This document shows, one piece after another, positions 27,975-33,966 of a DNA stretch of 51,114 nt. Below the pieces are notes generated by a model. It saw only the letters and a program-made list of their open reading frames with translations, was not told where the DNA came from and made no database searches. The position numbers and the translations under genes are program-made. Location of the stretch: NCBI GenBank assembly GCA_030654805.1, contig JAURWR010000056.1, forward strand, positions 1 to 51,114. The letters run 5' to 3'. Origin of the DNA: Burkholderiaceae bacterium (GTDB lineage: Bacteria; Pseudomonadota; Gammaproteobacteria; Burkholderiales; Burkholderiaceae_C). Numbering within the stretch: position 1 is the stretch's first letter; each line of letters starts with the position of its first letter.

Positions 27975-28050
27975 GGCCTGGTAGCTCAGTTGGTAGAGCA
28001 GCGGATTGAAAATCCGCGTGTCGGTGGTTCGATTCCGCCCCAGGCCACCA
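27975..28050 (+). tRNA. tRNA-Phe (GAA)
   Basis: A complete 76-nt tRNA with encoded CCA. The acceptor stem GGCCTGG pairs with CCAGGCC; the D arm is GCTC...GAGC; the anticodon stem GGATT/AATCC frames a TTGAAAA loop with anticodon GAA; the T arm carries GGTTCGATTCC. It closely matches proteobacterial tRNA-Phe. Its 3' part from the anticodon loop onward doubles as the left attachment site of the integrative element that follows. Confidence 0.97.
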
Positions 28051-28052
28051 GT
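28006..28052 (+). repeat. Left attachment site (attL) in tRNA-Phe
   Basis: The 47 bp beginning TTGAAAATCCGCGTGTCGGT and ending at CCACCAGT are repeated exactly at 33197-33243. The repeat covers the tRNA from the anticodon loop to the CCA end plus two bases, the usual target of tyrosine integrases. Confidence 0.95.
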
Positions 28053-28060
28053 TAGATCAA

Positions 28061-28092
28061 GGAGTTAGCGATTTATTCGCTAGCTCCTTTTT
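28061..28092 (+). terminator. Rho-independent terminator behind tRNA-Phe
   Basis: GGAG-T-TAGCGA (28061-28071), loop TTTAT, then TCGCTA-G-CTCC (28077-28087) and TTTTT. The stem overlaps the last codons of the integrase. The element therefore supplies a new terminator to the tRNA it split from its own. Confidence 0.85.
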
Positions 28093-29113
28093 CTTTGGGC
28101 GTAGCGGCAACGTAACCAGCTATCGCATCGAGCCGATTGGCGGCCCCCTGGAGCGCTTCGGGTGCCACGTGAGCGTAGCGCTCGACCATGGCACCGGTTT
28201 TCCAGCCTCCGAGCCGTTGAAGCTCATGCGTAGGCGTCCCGGCTTGGCGATGCCAGGTGGCGAAGGTATGGCGCAGGTCGTGCCACTTGAAGTTTTCGAT
28301 TCCTGCTCTTGCCAATGCCGCGTTCCACGCTTTCGTGTTGACGTTGGAAACCGGTTCACCCTTGTAGGTGAACACGTAGAGGGGATGCTTGCCGATCTGC
28401 TTGCGAAGCGCCGTCAGTGCCATCTCGTTGAGCGGCACCGAGTGGGGCTGTCCATTCTTGTGCTGGCTCCCTGGGATCCAGGCGTGGCGCAAGTCAAGGT
28501 CGACGCACTGCCATTGGAGGCCCTTTACGTTGGCCTGGCGCAGCCCTGAAGCTACGGCGAATATCGCCATGTCGGCCAGGTGCTCCGGTAGCTCGGAGAT
28601 GAGTCTTTCGAACTCTGCGCGGGTGAGTGACCGAATGCGCCCTTCGGCCTCCCTGAAGAGTTTGAACTTGGGCACGCGCTCGATCCACTCCCATTCATCG
28701 CACGCCCGCCGAAGGATGGAGCGGATCAAGGCGAGGTAGCGATTCGTTGTGCCCGAACTGGCGATTTTTTCCCGAGCGAACTTGATGTTGTCGATCAGCG
28801 TGCGGTCGATCTCATCGAGGTACTTGCCGCCCAGGTAGCTATCGAGCCAGCGCAGCTTTGCCTTGTCGTCCGCATGGGTTGCCTTGTGCTTTGACTCGAG
28901 GAGCCATCGTAGGACCGCCTCCTCCCACGTGTGGCGAGGCTTCACGCCGAGTCGGTCTTGCTCCCATCTGGAGGCTGCGAGGCGATCATGGACCTGCTGC
29001 GCCTGGCGCTTGTCGGTAGTCCCAGTGCTTTGCTGTAGAGGTCTCGATTCGCCAGCGATGGGCGATAGCTTGATCCACCAGAAGGGCGAATCTTTGCGCC
29101 GGTAGAGGGGCAT
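28073..29113 (-). CDS. Tyrosine recombinase / integrase
   Basis: A 346-residue phage-type integrase adjacent to attL. An N-terminal arm-binding region starts MPLYRRKDSPFWWIKL, a SAM-like core-binding domain covers about 60-145, and the catalytic domain has R192 (ASGLRQANVKGL), H278 and R281 (KWHDLRHTFATW), W304 and the nucleophile Y313 (VERYAHVAPEAL). All catalytic residues are intact, so the element may still be mobile. ATG 29113 was chosen for its GAGGAG Shine-Dalgarno; the frame extends upstream to 29467 but that part overlaps the excisionase and rep genes. A broken relative of this integrase lies near 35100. Confidence 0.94.
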   Translation of the reverse strand: MPLYRRKDSPFWWIKLSPIAGESRPLQQSTGTTDKRQAQQVHDRLAASRWEQDRLGVKPRHTWEEAVLRWLLESKHKATHADDKAKLRWLDSYLGGKYLDEIDRTLIDNIKFAREKIASSGTTNRYLALIRSILRRACDEWEWIERVPKFKLFREAEGRIRSLTRAEFERLISELPEHLADMAIFAVASGLRQANVKGLQWQCVDLDLRHAWIPGSQHKNGQPHSVPLNEMALTALRKQIGKHPLYVFTYKGEPVSNVNTKAWNAALARAGIENFKWHDLRHTFATWHRQAGTPTHELQRLGGWKTGAMVERYAHVAPEALQGAANRLDAIAGYVAATPKEKGASE

Positions 29114-29310
29114 TGGAAATTCTCCTCGCCGCTTAACGCGACGCGAACAGCCGAAAGTTTTGTGAGGTGATCGAGCAGCATCGATTCGACAAAGACCCAG
29201 GCGCGGCCAATCTTGCAAGCCGGTATGCAGCCTGCCCGCGCAAGCCCTTGAAGCGTCTTTGGGTGAACCTTCAGTAGCCGGGCCGCTTCGGTGATGTCTA
29301 GGGTCGGCAC
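28942..29310 (-). CDS. Excisionase-like MerR/AlpA-type HTH protein
   Basis: A 122-residue protein starting at GTG 29310 with AAAGGGG at ideal spacing. Residues 1-50 are a winged-helix excisionase domain: LDITEAARLLKVHPKTLQGL followed by RAGCIPACKIGRAWVF, the typical DNA-binding helix and wing. Such proteins direct excision or regulate the integrase. The remaining 70 residues overlap the start of the integrase gene by 172 bp and are probably less constrained. It overlaps the end of the replication gene by 13 bp, placing it in a rep-xis-int operon. Confidence 0.78.
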   Translation of the reverse strand: MPTLDITEAARLLKVHPKTLQGLARAGCIPACKIGRAWVFVESMLLDHLTKLSAVRVALSGEENFQCPSTGAKIRPSGGSSYRPSLANRDLYSKALGLPTSARRSRSMIASQPPDGSKTDSA

Positions 29311-30596
29311 GGCGATCCCCTTTGATCAACGAGCCCGACGTCGGCAAAGCTGCCCGGCGCATCCGGGTCGAGCAGCTCGGGTGACTTGGCCAGGTGGTAG
29401 CTGTAGGGCTCGATGCGTGCCGGAACGCCATCGCGTCGAAGCCGCTTGATGACCTCGCCCTCGTCACCCCCGTAGACCTGCAGCATCAGGTTCACCAGCT
29501 TGCCTGCCAGCTGCTTGCCGTTCGTCTCGGCGACGTTCAAGGAGATGGTCGCGCTGTTGGCAATCGTCTTGATGCGCACCTGCTCGACGTCAAGGTGTGT
29601 CAGGCAGGGATACGCACCGGCAAGGTACTTCCCGGGCGCTGTGAGCAGCTCGAACGGGATCAGGCGGTCCTTGCCGTGCCACTCGACTTCAACGCGCGTC
29701 CAAGGGCTTGTGGGGTCGCCCAGCTGCTTGCCCTTCTCGTAGATCCGGCAGTACTTGCCGTTGGCCCGGTTGCCGATCCCGAGCGTGCGGCCCTTGTCTG
29801 ATCCCTCACCGGAGAGCCAGTCGCCGAAGACCTGGTGCCGTGGCTTGCGACCACCGGCATTGAAGCCGTCGTTGCGGTACTGCTCGATGGCCCAGGCGAT
29901 GCTGGCGGTCTCGCCCTTGAAGTCGTCATAGGCAACGTCGGCGCGCTTCATCTTGGCCTGGTGCGTACTCAGCCAGGTGGCGAGCGCGGACCAGGCTTGA
30001 ACCAAGGCGCATCCCTTGCCTTGAATGCTGAAGTACACACGCCCGCGCTGACTGGCACCACCCCAGGCGACCAGCCCGGCACCATCCCCGAATCGAATCG
30101 ACTGCTTGAACCCGAAGCAACCGTTGCGCTGTTCGAGGTGATCGATGGGCAGGAACTGCCGCATCTGCTCCATCACCCACCGCACCGACTCGCCAGCAGG
30201 CGGAACGAGGGAGAAGGCAAGGGCATCGATCTGGGCAGCAGTCGGTGAAGCCGAAGCAACAGGGCTGAGCTGGCGCACGATCTGGACGCCACGATTTCCA
30301 AGGCAGATGTCCACCTGCTCGCCGGTATCGCTGTCGATGCCTTTCATCCCGGACCAAGGGATACCGACATCGTCGGCTGTGATCTTTCCCCCCGTAGTTA
30401 CTGTACGGGGGGCTTCTGCGGCGGCGTCCGTGCCGTCGAGGCGCGGCGGCAAAGCCGCTCGCTGCTCGCCGTCGCACACACCGCTGCAATGGATCCTCGG
30501 CGCATCACTGGCCACTGGGACGGCAAGCGCGCCTGGCGTTGTCGGTGGCGACACCAACGCCGCAAAAGAGTCTTGAAGGAAAGAAGGGGATTCCAT
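29298..30596 (-). CDS. Replication initiation protein (Rep_trans / phage RstA-like)
   Basis: A 432-residue protein of the replication initiation factor family found in filamentous phages and small integrative elements (CTX RstA-like). Recognisable segments are FGFKQSIRFGDGAGLVAWGG, KMKRADVAYDDFKGE, GIGNRANGKYCRIYEKGKQL and PWTRVEVEWHGKDRLIPFELL, the last two being the conserved core. The first ~130 residues are low in recognisable features. It should nick and initiate rolling-circle replication of the excised circle. Start ATG 30596 is preferred over a TTG three codons upstream; the start sits on a GTCCCC/GGGGAC inverted repeat that may be its own operator. Confidence 0.85.
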   Translation of the reverse strand: MESPSFLQDSFAALVSPPTTPGALAVPVASDAPRIHCSGVCDGEQRAALPPRLDGTDAAAEAPRTVTTGGKITADDVGIPWSGMKGIDSDTGEQVDICLGNRGVQIVRQLSPVASASPTAAQIDALAFSLVPPAGESVRWVMEQMRQFLPIDHLEQRNGCFGFKQSIRFGDGAGLVAWGGASQRGRVYFSIQGKGCALVQAWSALATWLSTHQAKMKRADVAYDDFKGETASIAWAIEQYRNDGFNAGGRKPRHQVFGDWLSGEGSDKGRTLGIGNRANGKYCRIYEKGKQLGDPTSPWTRVEVEWHGKDRLIPFELLTAPGKYLAGAYPCLTHLDVEQVRIKTIANSATISLNVAETNGKQLAGKLVNLMLQVYGGDEGEVIKRLRRDGVPARIEPYSYHLAKSPELLDPDAPGSFADVGLVDQRGSPCRP

Positions 30597-30617
30597 GTCC
30601 CCCAATATATAGGGGAC
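30597..30617. promoter_or_regulatory. Inverted repeat at the rep start codon
   Basis: GTCCCC (30597-30602) and GGGGAC (30612-30617) flank a 9-nt AT-rich spacer CAATATATA. GGGGATTCC (30586-30594) and GGGGACTCC (30612-30620) are near-identical direct copies. The AT core could include a -10 box for rep, with the arms as operator. Confidence 0.4.
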
Positions 30618-30648
30618 TCCAAAGCCCTGTCAAGGGATTTGAAAGCCC

Positions 30649-31008
30649 CTAGTCGAAAACGCGCTTGTTCTCGATTTTCTCTTCGCCGGACACCGCTTTC
30701 CAGAAATTGGAGAGGTTCTTGGCGAGCTTGTAGCCGATGGACCTGTCGACGTCGGGGCCTTCATCCGGGAACTCGTCGCGGACTTTGATGCCGAGGATCT
30801 CCTCGTACTTGGCGATGGTCTTCTTGCTGTGAATCAGCACCAGAACTCGCCAGCCAACGTGACGACCGATCATGTACATGCCAATCGCCCCCTCAAGCTC
30901 GTCGGCACCGCCGTGGAAGTTGCGAATGGCGTTGTCTACAACGTCGGACATCCGCTTCGCCTCATCCGGTGTGAGGTGCTGAGTCTTAGCTTTTTTTCCT
31001 GAGGGCAT
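30649..31008 (-). CDS. Hypothetical protein of the integrative element
   Basis: A 119-residue charged, soluble protein without a signal or membrane segment. It begins with a lysine-rich MPSGKKAKTQHLTPDEAKRM and contains IGMYMIGRHVGWRVLVLIHS and GYKLAKNLSNFWKAVSGEEK. No family is recognised. It precedes rep on the same strand, separated by about 50 bp, and the strong hairpin lies 50 bp upstream of its start. No Shine-Dalgarno is evident before ATG 31008. Position between the hairpin and rep would suit a replication or copy-control accessory protein, but that is inference only. Confidence 0.65.
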   Translation of the reverse strand: MPSGKKAKTQHLTPDEAKRMSDVVDNAIRNFHGGADELEGAIGMYMIGRHVGWRVLVLIHSKKTIAKYEEILGIKVRDEFPDEGPDVDRSIGYKLAKNLSNFWKAVSGEEKIENKRVFD

Positions 31009-31058
31009 CCGGTCAGGATATCAGGCAAGGGGACTTCATGCACCCGCCTGCACACGCA

Positions 31059-31124
31059 CACATACCCACCGCCCCCCGCCCGCCTGCGTGGCGTGCGCCA
31101 CGGGCGGGGGGCCGTGGATATGTG
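31059..31124. other. Very long hairpin, candidate replication origin
   Basis: Arms 31059-31082 and 31101-31124 pair at 22 of 24 positions, including an unbroken 11-bp CCCCCCGCCCG/CGGGCGGGGGG. The enclosed loop contains a further perfect TGGCG-TG-CGCCA hairpin. There is no T-run on either side, so a simple terminator is unlikely. In an element that encodes a rolling-circle type initiator, this is the best candidate for an origin or single-strand packaging structure. Confidence 0.5.
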
Positions 31125-31163
31125 CGAAACAGCGAGTCAGAAACGCACCCTGGAAAGGTGCGG

Positions 31164-31355
31164 TCAGTCCGTATGAGCAGGGCTTCGCTGAGGACGTTGC
31201 GCAGCGGGAGCGATCTTGGTGGGGCCAGTTCCACTCTTGGGAAACGATGCTGTAGCTACCGCAGCAGATTTACGCATCCATTCAGGCCACTCCTCTACGC
31301 TTCGGCGCGAGGTTTCGAATTGCGAAAGGAACCCAGTTTTTGACTCATTCTTCAT
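31164..31355 (-). CDS. Small protein coupled to the dCTP deaminase (63 aa)
   Basis: Starts at ATG 31355, which overlaps the deaminase stop codon in an ATGA, with AGGAGAC upstream inside the deaminase gene. The first 40 residues (FLSQFETSRRSVEEWPEWM, then RKSAAVATASFP) look like a conserved small-protein motif with a WPEWM core; the last 20 are proline-rich and may be unconstrained. No family name is recognised. The tight coupling suggests it is made together with the deaminase and could be a partner, inhibitor or sensor. Its end lies 40 bp from the long hairpin. Confidence 0.6.
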   Translation of the reverse strand: MKNESKTGFLSQFETSRRSVEEWPEWMRKSAAVATASFPKSGTGPTKIAPAAQRPQRSPAHTD

Positions 31356-32971
31356 TGCGTGTCTCCTACGATGCTGGCCTGCTGGGGAACTCGGACAGTT
31401 TCTTCGACCATCTTCTCTTCAATGTACAAATATGTAAAGACAAGTCTTTTTATGCGCGGCCGTGACGCGATAGCGTCCGCGTCAAGGATCTCCCCTTTCT
31501 TATTCTTTCTCTCTCCGTCCATCGCGAAGAAATCCATATACCTTCGCGGCGCAACACCAACAAACGAACGGAAGTTCGCGCGCTTTGGTGACGGCTCGTG
31601 CGGCTCTACGCTTATAGAGTCTCCAAATAGTTCGTTAGTTCTACTTTTTTCATATGGCTCTATAAAAACAACTTCTGATATTCCACTAGCTACGATGTGT
31701 CTCGCACATATATGGCAAGGGAATGTGGTGCAAAAAAGCCTGGCCTGCTGCAGTGGCACTCCTAGTTTTGCCGCTTGAGTTATCGCCGCCATCTCTGCAT
31801 GAACCGCCCGTCCGAACTCTATTACATCAAAAAGCCGAGAATCTCGAAAGAAATCTTTAGTTCCATACAACGTCATTTTCGCCAAGTCCGCCGCGCTCCG
31901 CGAAGCCAAACCAGGTGAAAGCCATCCATTTTCTCGAAGTCTGTGTACGGCATCCTCGACAAGCTCAGCCTTAATCGTTGCGTTGGAATCTCGTCCCAGT
32001 TCGAAATCTCTTGCTAGATCCTCATCGCCATCCCAGTACAAACCGCCACCAAATTTTGGAACCTCATTGCATCCGGTAGCGAGGATGTCGCCGTCCAAAT
32101 TAATAATTGCCGCACCAACCTGGCGAGATAGATCCAATGAACGTAGCGCCGAAGCTTGAGCAAAGAACATTCCCTGTTCGTCGCGCGATGGAGATATATA
32201 CGGATCTCCGAACGTTAGCCGCACAAGCCGGCGCATTTGAGAATCTAATTGATTTCTTGAGTCGCTGCTAACGAAAAAATCGGCCAGAGGGAACGTTCTT
32301 CCCATTTTCTGGCCAAGCTCACCGTCCTCTTCATAATCTCTAGTTATGAGCCGAACGGCCAGCTCTTCCGGGTTCTTCGTGTCCCCAGTCTCACACCCTT
32401 GAAACAATTTCGTAAGATGACTCTGTCTCGCCTGCCGCGGAGAATATACAGATATTAGAGTGAAAGCCTTACCGTAGGTGTCCCTGTACAACGACACCTC
32501 TTCAGGACGCTTAAATGATCTGACGATGTACGCTACACGCTTGGTTGCACGCGCTTTTTCATCTCCAAACAACTTCTTTCTAATATCCCTAATCTCAGCG
32601 AGGCCCAATCTTCCGACTATGTCGGCCTGATTTGTAGCGCGCCTTAGAGCGGTTCCCTCCGTCATCAACCGCTCGATTCTTTCGTATTCATTTTTGGCGG
32701 TTAGCTGCCTGCCAATATATGGCCCGATTAATTCACTCAGCCTGACAATTTTTGTCTCGTAGTTAACCGCTTTTAATTGAGACTGTAGAGATGCGCAAAC
32801 TTTCGTTAAATCCACACCCGTAGGCCCAACAAATCCGAACACCAACTCAATCGGATTTTCCGAGCCATTTTCAGTTGTGCTGGTATTTGCGGATTCAACA
32901 GGTTCAGCGGACTGCAATTGCTCGGCAGGTTTGGCTTTTCTTGATCGCGGTGTTTTCTTTCCCGTTGCCAT
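31352..32971 (-). CDS. Anti-phage dCTP deaminase (AvcD-type)
   Basis: A 539-residue two-domain protein. After a lysine-rich tail, residues 42-250 form a P-loop kinase-like domain (VFGFVGPTGVDLTKVC). The C-terminal deaminase domain has zinc ligand H391 and catalytic E393 in HAEMAAI, and C419 and C422 in TTFPCHICARHIVASGI. This architecture is that of the defence deaminases (V. cholerae AvcD, E. coli dCTP deaminase) that deplete dCTP/dCMP during phage infection; housekeeping dCMP deaminases are about 150-190 residues and lack the N-terminal domain. Codon use is AT-rich compared with all neighbours. It overlaps small ORFs at both ends, and in the Vibrio system an upstream RNA, AvcI, keeps the enzyme off. 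Confidence 0.88.
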   Translation of the reverse strand: MATGKKTPRSRKAKPAEQLQSAEPVESANTSTTENGSENPIELVFGFVGPTGVDLTKVCASLQSQLKAVNYETKIVRLSELIGPYIGRQLTAKNEYERIERLMTEGTALRRATNQADIVGRLGLAEIRDIRKKLFGDEKARATKRVAYIVRSFKRPEEVSLYRDTYGKAFTLISVYSPRQARQSHLTKLFQGCETGDTKNPEELAVRLITRDYEEDGELGQKMGRTFPLADFFVSSDSRNQLDSQMRRLVRLTFGDPYISPSRDEQGMFFAQASALRSLDLSRQVGAAIINLDGDILATGCNEVPKFGGGLYWDGDEDLARDFELGRDSNATIKAELVEDAVHRLRENGWLSPGLASRSAADLAKMTLYGTKDFFRDSRLFDVIEFGRAVHAEMAAITQAAKLGVPLQQARLFCTTFPCHICARHIVASGISEVVFIEPYEKSRTNELFGDSISVEPHEPSPKRANFRSFVGVAPRRYMDFFAMDGERKNKKGEILDADAIASRPRIKRLVFTYLYIEEKMVEETVRVPQQASIVGDTQ

Positions 32972-33063
32972 CAGAGCCCTTTGAGGATGTGCTTGAACTC
33001 TAATTCCTCCAGCGGATCTGGTGACCCGAGGAAACGCACCTGTTCGGACGGTGGGTTCGTCAT
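32971..33063 (-). CDS. Small upstream ORF of the dCTP deaminase (30 aa)
   Basis: A 30-codon frame from ATG 33063 whose TGA shares one base with the deaminase ATG (TGATG). GAGG lies 10 nt before its start. The peptide ends LEELEFKHILKGL and could form an amphipathic helix. Just upstream on the same transcript AGCTAC-TTC-GTAGCT (33086-33100) makes a hairpin. The region 32972-33196 is also the place where an AvcI-like inhibitory RNA would be expected, so this could be a leader peptide, an antitoxin peptide or part of such an RNA. No homologue is recognised. Confidence 0.45.
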   Translation of the reverse strand: MTNPPSEQVRFLGSPDPLEELEFKHILKGL

Positions 33064-33196
33064 CTTTAAAAGCCTCGCCAGTCGTAGCTACTTCGTAGCT
33101 GAATGCTCGGGGTTAGCTGTTCTGGCTCGACCTCAGGGCTACTCTGCGTCCGCGAGAACATGACCGAAGCCGTACGTCCGGACGCTCCGCAGCCCC

Positions 33197-33243
33197 TTGA
33201 AAATCCGCGTGTCGGTGGTTCGATTCCGCCCCAGGCCACCAGT
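33197..33243 (+). repeat. Right attachment site (attR)
   Basis: Exact 47-bp copy of the 3' half of tRNA-Phe including CCA. It has no 5' half and is not a functional tRNA. It marks the right end of the integrative element. Confidence 0.95.
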
Positions 33244-33402: not shown

Positions 33403-33494
33403 GCGCTCACGGACCTCGGGTGAAAACTTGCTCGACTTGTTCATCGCTCCATCCTCTCAAAGATTGGAGCCTCCTCAAAATCCGGGGCGGTTCA
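33403..33494 (-). mobile_element. IS3-family insertion sequence, left-end remnant
   Basis: On the minus strand the segment begins with TGAACCGCCCCGGATTTTGA (terminal repeat typical of IS3-family elements) and continues through an AGGATGGAGC Shine-Dalgarno to ATG 33444, whose product starts MNKSSKFSPEVRER as in IS3 OrfA. The similarity stops abruptly at about 33403, where a perfect TTCCTGACG/CGTCAGGAA hairpin (33381-33402) begins. The rest of the IS is missing. It truncates the neighbouring integrase gene at 33494. Confidence 0.75.
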
Positions 33495-33966
33495 CATCGC
33501 TTACATAGCGGTCGCGGCCTGACTCCTTGAACCCCTTAACCCCTTGGCACGGGTTCGGCGCGTCGGTGTAACCCCACTCCCTCGCCTTGTTGAACAGGTG
33601 GCTCAGCAGAGCCTTTTCTCGGTTCGCTCGCGCCTTTGCTTGCTCGCCGCGCTTGTCGAGATACCCGCGCACGTGGTGCGGCTTGATGTTGCCGATCAGC
33701 ATCTTTCCGAACACGGCGCGCAGTCGGTCCAGCTCGATCAGGTTGTCTTTCTGGGTTCGGGCCGCCTTGCCGGGGATGACATCGCGTTCGTACCTGAGCG
33801 CGATCACATCGAATGTTCGAACGCTGGGGTCCGCTTCGCTGCCTTCGATCCGTGCCCATTCCAAAAGCGCCCGCGCTCGATCCTTGCCAAGCGCGGTCCA
33901 CTTTCGGGGGGCGGTGCTGGTGACGTGGTAATACCGATCGCCCTTCATGTGAAGGCTGCGTGGCAA
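33495..33966 (-). pseudogene. Integrase N-terminal half, truncated by IS3 fragment
   Basis: About 157 residues of a tyrosine recombinase: N-terminal region (GDRYYHVTSTAPRKWTALGK), a core-binding domain (KPHHVRGYLDKRGEQAKARA, REKALLSHLFNKAREWGYTD) and the linker GRDRYVSDV. The frame then enters the IS3 terminal repeat and stops at 33475. The catalytic domain is absent. It is a different integrase family from the intact one at 28073-29113. Confidence 0.85.

Follow-up and report, generated by a model that had tools for sequence, protein, structure and literature searches.

The window (the whole 51,114-nucleotide stretch of DNA that was analysed) carries a gene for an AvcD-type anti-phage deaminase and, overlapping its stop codon, a small gene that sequence comparison indicates to be real and conserved as the second member of a pair. 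The defence system is of a known kind, and what appears to be new is the downstream protein-coding partner. The preferred reading, given a probability of about 0.5, is that this is a two-gene AvcD cassette in which the partner binds AvcD and keeps it inactive until infection. In the parts of the literature consulted, AvcD is restrained by an RNA, and the models in the family libraries cover only the enzyme. With a small conserved protein encoded next to AvcD, how the deaminase is silenced and switched on becomes open to direct test. Surveys based on the enzyme alone would miss such a partner, and cloning avcD without it could lead to false negatives or to toxicity.

The deaminase gene (31352..32971, minus strand) is predicted to encode a 539-residue AvcD. 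It scored 446.9 bits against the anti-phage dCTP deaminase family NF041025 (cut-off 400), with residues 42-489 aligned across all profile positions (1-437 of 437), and 535.7 bits against the PADLOC dCTPase model, in agreement with the original prediction of a dCTP deaminase defence gene. The predicted architecture comprises a low-confidence N-terminal tail, a P-loop-kinase-like domain and a dCMP-deaminase-like domain, the latter with a zinc site formed by HAE (391-393) and PCHIC (418-422). The zinc-site residues were invariant across 18 aligned AvcD sequences, as were H391, A392, E393, P418, C419, H420 and C422 individually (alignments A2 and A9). Foldseek searches with the AF2 model (pLDDT 81.4, pTM 0.78) returned dCMP deaminases and AdkA-like kinases, the kinase-like domain of the model resembling the AdkA-like kinases 3h0k and 3lw7 with a TM-score by target of 0.73-0.75; a Walker A lysine was not evident by eye (GPTGVDLTK). 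The 32 structures matched by sequence were dCMP, tRNA-adenosine and cytosine deaminases, CDADC1 and two AdkA-like kinases, and no solved AvcD structure was found by sequence search at E<=0.01. The gene is thus assigned, on profile scores, zinc site and modelled fold, as an AvcD-type defence deaminase.

The partner is an ORF of 63 codons (31164..31355, minus strand; here family A) whose start overlaps the avcD stop as ATGA, and a Shine-Dalgarno-like AGGAG (31363..31367, minus strand) lies 7 bases ahead of its ATG, within the avcD frame. This geometry, including the AGGAG and a WPEWM core, had been described in the original prediction and is all present in the sequence. All seven close relatives, whose AvcDs are 56-70% identical to that of the window (L013, L014, L015, L016, L022, L024 and L035; L021, L023 and L034 duplicate the DNA of L013, L014 and L016, and each such pair was counted once), carry at the avcD stop an ORF 56-65 codons long, starting at offset -1 in six and at +6 in L013. 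When 432 flanking ORFs of at least 45 codons were compared by blastp (E<=1e-4) over up to 4.5 kb per side, or only about 1.5 kb for L022 and L024, the small ORF of the window was recovered in all seven relatives, whereas each flanking ORF besides the partner was common to at most three of the eight loci (its own and at most two others). Those other shared ORFs were integrase frames and frames antisense to the small ORF. Across the eight copies, codon positions 1, 2 and 3 differed at 0.478, 0.338 and 0.643 per site (28 pairs, 1119 codon comparisons). The value of dN was below dS in all eight pairs with a defined dS, the ratio ranging from approximately 0.06 (L014-L024, 0.20/3.12) to 0.63 (L024-L016, 0.62/0.98), while dS was undefined in the other 20 of the 28 pairs, as at saturation. 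The conservation check set out for this ORF in the original prediction therefore came out positive, through retention in 7/7 relatives, dN below dS and enrichment at avcD stops (below), and the ORF is identified as a real gene with its codons under purifying selection.

In the AF2 model the partner forms two helices (residues 3-21 and 25-36), the turn between them being made by WPEW, and ends in a tail of low confidence; mean pLDDT is 92-95 for residues 11-30 and falls to 55-59 in the tail (pTM 0.41). It had no match at E<=1 in PADLOC or NCBIfam and no known domain in Pfam. In the libraries searched, its matches were to PHROGs of unknown function only, namely phrog_38465 (55 positions, no function given in the library), which matched the window partner at E 4.9e-5 (25.8 bits) and the partners of L040 and L035 at 1e-14 and 1.3e-5, and the weaker phrog_29728, at 0.0029 for the partner of L040. 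A search with phrog_38465 across 250 genomes of the order returned only the window and one weak match (G125), which the family A profile does not recognise.

To extend the comparison beyond close relatives, AvcD loci were drawn from genomes, from a selection of matches in plasmids and phages, and from viral contigs, giving 106 distinct AvcD-like frames, 101 of them of at least 480 residues. The profile of the eight partner copies was run on the 7114 small ORFs of these 101 loci, 6609 of which were non-training. The top non-training matches were in L040 (start offset +4, E 1.1e-7), L056 (+4, 0.015) and L172 (-1, 0.052), and those ranked 4 to 10 were individually weak (E 0.41 to 1.7). The striking part is their position: eight of the ten best start within 60 bases of the avcD stop, where 0.11 were expected (P 4.6e-15) given that 70 of the 6609 non-training ORFs lie there. 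These ORFs share a diverged core, ..A...V..WPxWK.., found mostly at avcD stops, and the wide family A alignment is mostly gap-free in the core, with hydrophobic positions, A, V and W-P-x-W-K/M (W-S in some). L040 (MT838710.1, 4954 bases, from human faeces, labelled bacteriophage and unverified) contains both an AvcD and a family A partner, and single partner proteins searched by tblastn against plasmids and phages found nothing convincing besides this source record.

A region-limited count placed family A at 24 of the 101 loci, a circular figure in that 22 of these 24 are inside the profile; the non-circular tests are the eight-copy profile with its training loci excluded and the hold-out L188. 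This locus, whose AvcD is nearest the family A clade, was one of four (L187-L190) fetched after the profiles were made, three of which turned out as the tree predicts. It has RVESWPAWKQ in an ORF overlapping the end of avcD, as its AvcD relatives predict, matching the wide profile at E 3.1e-11 and the eight-copy profile at 0.0035. Across 299 genomes of the family, all seven matches of the wider profile with E<=1.7e-15 lay directly behind avcD, in six genomes including the window, although these seven are profile rows or copies and therefore show specificity only. The four further matches (E 7.7e-4 to 0.007) had no AvcD-like frame within the surrounding 2-3 kb and were set aside as looking like chance. 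In a similarly made draw, AvcD was present in 15 of 299 genomes; the nine AvcD genomes without a strong family A match comprise eight with AvcDs of the other main tree branch and the diverged L025. In these searches the linkage of the partner to avcD is near-exclusive.

In a quick tree of 96 AvcDs, for which support is SH-aLRT only, family A was present in 13/13 rows of the clade of the window (support 91) and in 9/9 rows of another clade, made up of three loci from Planctomycetota and six from the virus collection; L171 and L172 have it too. It was absent at threshold in six nearby rows (L004, L005, L036, L045, L049 and L090). With each AvcD scored as having a partner of family A, of the families B or U described below, or none, these states required 12 changes on the tree, compared with a mean of 43.4 when shuffled. 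Partner types, as recognised by these profiles, follow the AvcD tree.

Other AvcD clades have small ORFs of different kinds beside the enzyme gene, a wider pattern that is arguably the more interesting part of these results. Family B, in 15 of the 101 loci (E<0.1), lies downstream, at the avcD stop (L117, L109, L110, L113, L028, L009, L033, L027, L007 and others), and begins with QLELxF. The variants QLEFPF, QMSLDF and QLSFNF were also seen at this start; QxxLxF is a sliding-clamp-binding pattern. Family U, in 10 of the 101 loci (E<0.05), precedes avcD on the same strand, has W as its last residue in eight of these ten and is annotated as hypothetical proteins in L038 (2772-2957), L039 (705-887) and L042 (2348-2530). 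Further U ORFs are those of L088, L075, L076, L077 and L041, and those of L187 and L189, two of the later-fetched loci that are nearest clade U, in which the upstream ORFs also end in W and match the U profile at E 0.0011 and 0.00033; L190 had no A, B or U partner. The U ORFs, conserved and of approximately 56-78 codons in the enteric/Vibrio AvcD clade, occupy the side of avcD on which the RNA AvcI is reported to lie. A search for variants of an enteric upstream ORF among E. coli genomes matched a single record. A fourth family, D1, is a divergent ORF of 57-59 residues on the minus strand just upstream of avcD in eight loci (L053, L057-L060, L062, L063 and L065), which dN/dS suggests to be coding; ORFs resembling it by eye occur in L037, L047, L048, L067-L069, L073, L079 and L080.

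These assignments carry different weight. Most of the loci labelled by the B and U profiles had also gone into building them, and the D family came from an all-against-all comparison, its profile recognising nothing beyond its members and near copies of these. Wherever dS was defined, dN was below it (4/6 pairs for U, 8/15 for B, 4/5 for D and 2/6 for diverged family A), with many of these pairs too distant for much weight; the better ones gave dN/dS of 0.40/1.38 (L039-L042), 0.09/0.32 (L009-L033) and 0.18/3.24 (L053-L058). Profile comparison detected no homology among A, B and U, the best result being B with U at a probability of 1.8% (E 0.028). The B profile matches two U-type ORFs, in L076 and L077, at E 1.9e-5, and on this basis B and U may be related. 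No A, B, U or D1 partner was assigned in 44 of the 101 loci, some of them cut by contig ends, and four unassigned loci (L032, L085, L101 and L103) have member-like ORFs. A broader reading is tentatively put forward, with the odds somewhat against it: AvcDs as a class might be run by cognate small proteins, A, B, U or D depending on the clade, such that a conserved protein would be encoded at the Vibrio/enteric 'RNA antitoxin' locus as well, with the window as the clearest replacement of RNA control by protein control. Clade-specific partners of a single enzyme would offer a ready-made set for locating the site on AvcD at which control is exerted.

The characterised system with the same enzyme family is AvcID of Vibrio and E. 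coli, in which an RNA, AvcI, is the antitoxin to AvcD, a pairing classed as a type III toxin-antitoxin system. AvcI adjoins avcD according to the portions consulted of a review (PMC12409362), and lies upstream of it in the V. cholerae study (PMC9455884). In V. parahaemolyticus, a stop of host transcription leads to loss of AvcI and active AvcD, as reported in the sections consulted of PMC10511110. The locus in the window resembles AvcID, which in V. cholerae lies on an island, in that a mobile element carries it as defence cargo and in its compactness, with a small regulatory-looking unit beside avcD. It differs in having an overlapping downstream protein-coding gene and in that no conserved upstream RNA was seen in the leader comparisons, fold and Rfam search described below. 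The original prediction that AvcD systems are described with an inhibitory RNA accords with the AvcID papers, which make no mention of a downstream partner in the portions consulted. The partner was not found described in a literature search, the scope of which did not extend to the pair of papers that founded the field (Nat Microbiol 2022).

For a clade in which a small gene overlaps avcD and no leader conservation was seen, a protein doing the job of AvcI is the simplest reading. Under this model, AvcD would deaminate dCTP/dCMP and so starve phage DNA synthesis, and the partner would sit on AvcD as a helical hairpin that silences it in the uninfected cell, playing in this clade the role reported for the RNA AvcI in Vibrio. 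The overlap of the partner start with the avcD stop could couple translation, ribosomes finishing AvcD continuing into the partner. The trigger would be shut-off of host expression by the phage, upon which the short, partly disordered and presumably labile partner would be lost first and AvcD freed. The arrangement recalls type II toxin-antitoxin systems in having two adjacent genes and a conserved coding partner that is short with a low-confidence tail. It differs from them in that the enzyme gene comes first and the window partner has no known domain, and neutralisation would be an inference here.

Several observations count against an inhibitor. The conserved core is short (35 model positions) and fast-diverging, the six AvcDs without a match at threshold sit amid family A carriers, and the partner follows the enzyme gene, unlike many type II antitoxins, the genes of which precede the toxin gene. 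According to the parts consulted of PMC10511110, spectinomycin did not lower avcI, and its authors state that rifampicin, not spectinomycin, activated V. cholerae AvcD. The inhibitor reported in Vibrio is thus an RNA, and the spectinomycin result argues against protein-based inhibition in the systems characterised so far, although it has no direct bearing on clade A.

The main rival to an inhibitor is that the partner is a required subunit, sensor or activator that detects phage or brings AvcD to its site of work, which is judged a possible but rather unlikely alternative. Strict pairing and overlapping genes fit it equally well, and the variation of partner families by AvcD clade is what would be expected of sensors for different phages. 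A general need for an activator is argued against by the V. cholerae results in the parts consulted of PMC9455884, in which AvcD over-produced without AvcI caused filamentation and AvcD and its homologues were toxic in E. coli; however, those toxic AvcDs belong to another clade, so the objection is indirect.

It is more doubtful that AvcD is instead controlled by an AvcI-like RNA from the leader, with the small ORF an accessory of other function. The leader between the element-end repeat and avcD (32972..33196, minus strand) is the only site for an upstream RNA of this kind within the element, and its 225 bases provide room for one. It folds slightly better than shuffled sequences, with a z of only -1.30, equalled by 18 of 200 shuffles, and Rfam gave no match in it at E<=5. 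Over the 220 bases upstream of avcD, all 16 close-relative pairs compared lacked similarity (z -1.5 to 1.2), whereas the DNA of the small ORF was similar in 8 of 16 (z 4.7 to 24.8; up to 1.3 in the other eight); the avcD starts used for L014 and L016 were the analyst's choice. By eye, the leaders of the relatives contain other frames, tRNA-like or terminator-like sequence. A conserved upstream RNA was therefore not seen in the relatives' leaders, the fold or Rfam, though structure could persist without sequence similarity and AvcI itself was outside the comparison.

The leader also contains a 30-codon ORF (32971..33063, minus strand) that, as originally predicted (33063..32971), is present and ends in TGATG on the avcD ATG. 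As a gene it was rejected, since it has no counterpart in relatives and TGATG-ended ORFs are frequent by chance: of 129 TGATG sites across the window, 21 terminate an ORF at least 30 codons long. When its peptide was compared by tblastn with the 700 bases ahead of avcD in 99 further loci, no match was better than E 0.24, none of the ten listed matches came from a close relative, and in the seven relatives no ORF of at least 20 codons overlaps the avcD start. With a counterpart in 0/7 relatives, the upstream ORF fails the conservation check proposed for it in the original prediction, and the three-frame cassette is not supported, in contrast to the downstream ORF, conserved in 7/7. In L014, a 30-codon frame precedes the AvcD core, but it is in frame with the core, ends in TGA and is unrelated in sequence. 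This in-frame TGA lies between an N-tail-like stretch and the core (L014:4869-4961; L023 is the same DNA), and the core has no ATG, GTG or TTG before 5085; an assembly error in this metagenome-assembled genome, a broken gene or an odd start are possible explanations.

The avcD pair lies within a mobile element. A 47-base exact repeat has its left copy at 28006..28052 (plus strand), equal to the 3' part of a tRNA-Phe gene (27975-28050), and its right copy at 33197..33243 (plus strand), at the opposite end of the integrated element. Along the minus strand, the leader is followed by avcD (32971..31352), the small ORF (31355..31164), a GC-rich palindrome (31128..31055), a 119-residue ORF (30649..31008), a Rep_trans replication initiator (29298..30605; PF02486, E 1.4e-21) and a phage-type integrase (28073..29467; PF00589, E 4.3e-28), and then by the tRNA-Phe on the opposite strand. 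The two copies of the tRNA-Phe end make it most likely that the avcD cassette is cargo of an integrated element of 5.2 kb (28006-33243) comprising the integrase, initiator, 119-residue ORF and avcD pair. The G+C content of avcD is 48.6%, compared with 66.0% for the whole window. This setting raises the alternative of the small ORF being a passenger, such as an excisionase or maintenance gene, that adjoins avcD by chance, which is considered very improbable. Frames like the integrase of the element also occur near avcD in L035 and, weakly, in L014, as a passenger would allow. Against this, the small ORF stays while the other flanking ORFs differ between loci, and in the 299 genomes no strong match to it was seen other than behind avcD.

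Programmed frameshifting at the ATGA overlap to give an extended AvcD is scarcely credible, since, while the frames meet at the overlap in 11 of 24 loci, where the first possible partner start is at -1 (ATGA or GTGA), this start is at -44 to +46 elsewhere, up to 46 bases past the stop, and the partner has its own AGGAG; these offsets refer to the first possible start codon, which is perhaps not the true start. No fusion of AvcD and partner was found with a single motif pattern applied to the C-terminal 170 and N-terminal 40 residues in the 106 AvcD frames.

The 119-residue ORF of the element matched nothing in PADLOC or NCBIfam and no Pfam family above cut-off. The palindrome between it and the small ORF (31055-31128, 75.7% G+C) gave Rfam matches to hairpin families at chance level, and could possibly be a terminator or the replication origin of the element. 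Directly outside the right repeat, a 163-residue frame (33475-33966) has weak integrase N-terminal and core-binding matches, below cut-off, and may be what is left of an older element once inserted there.
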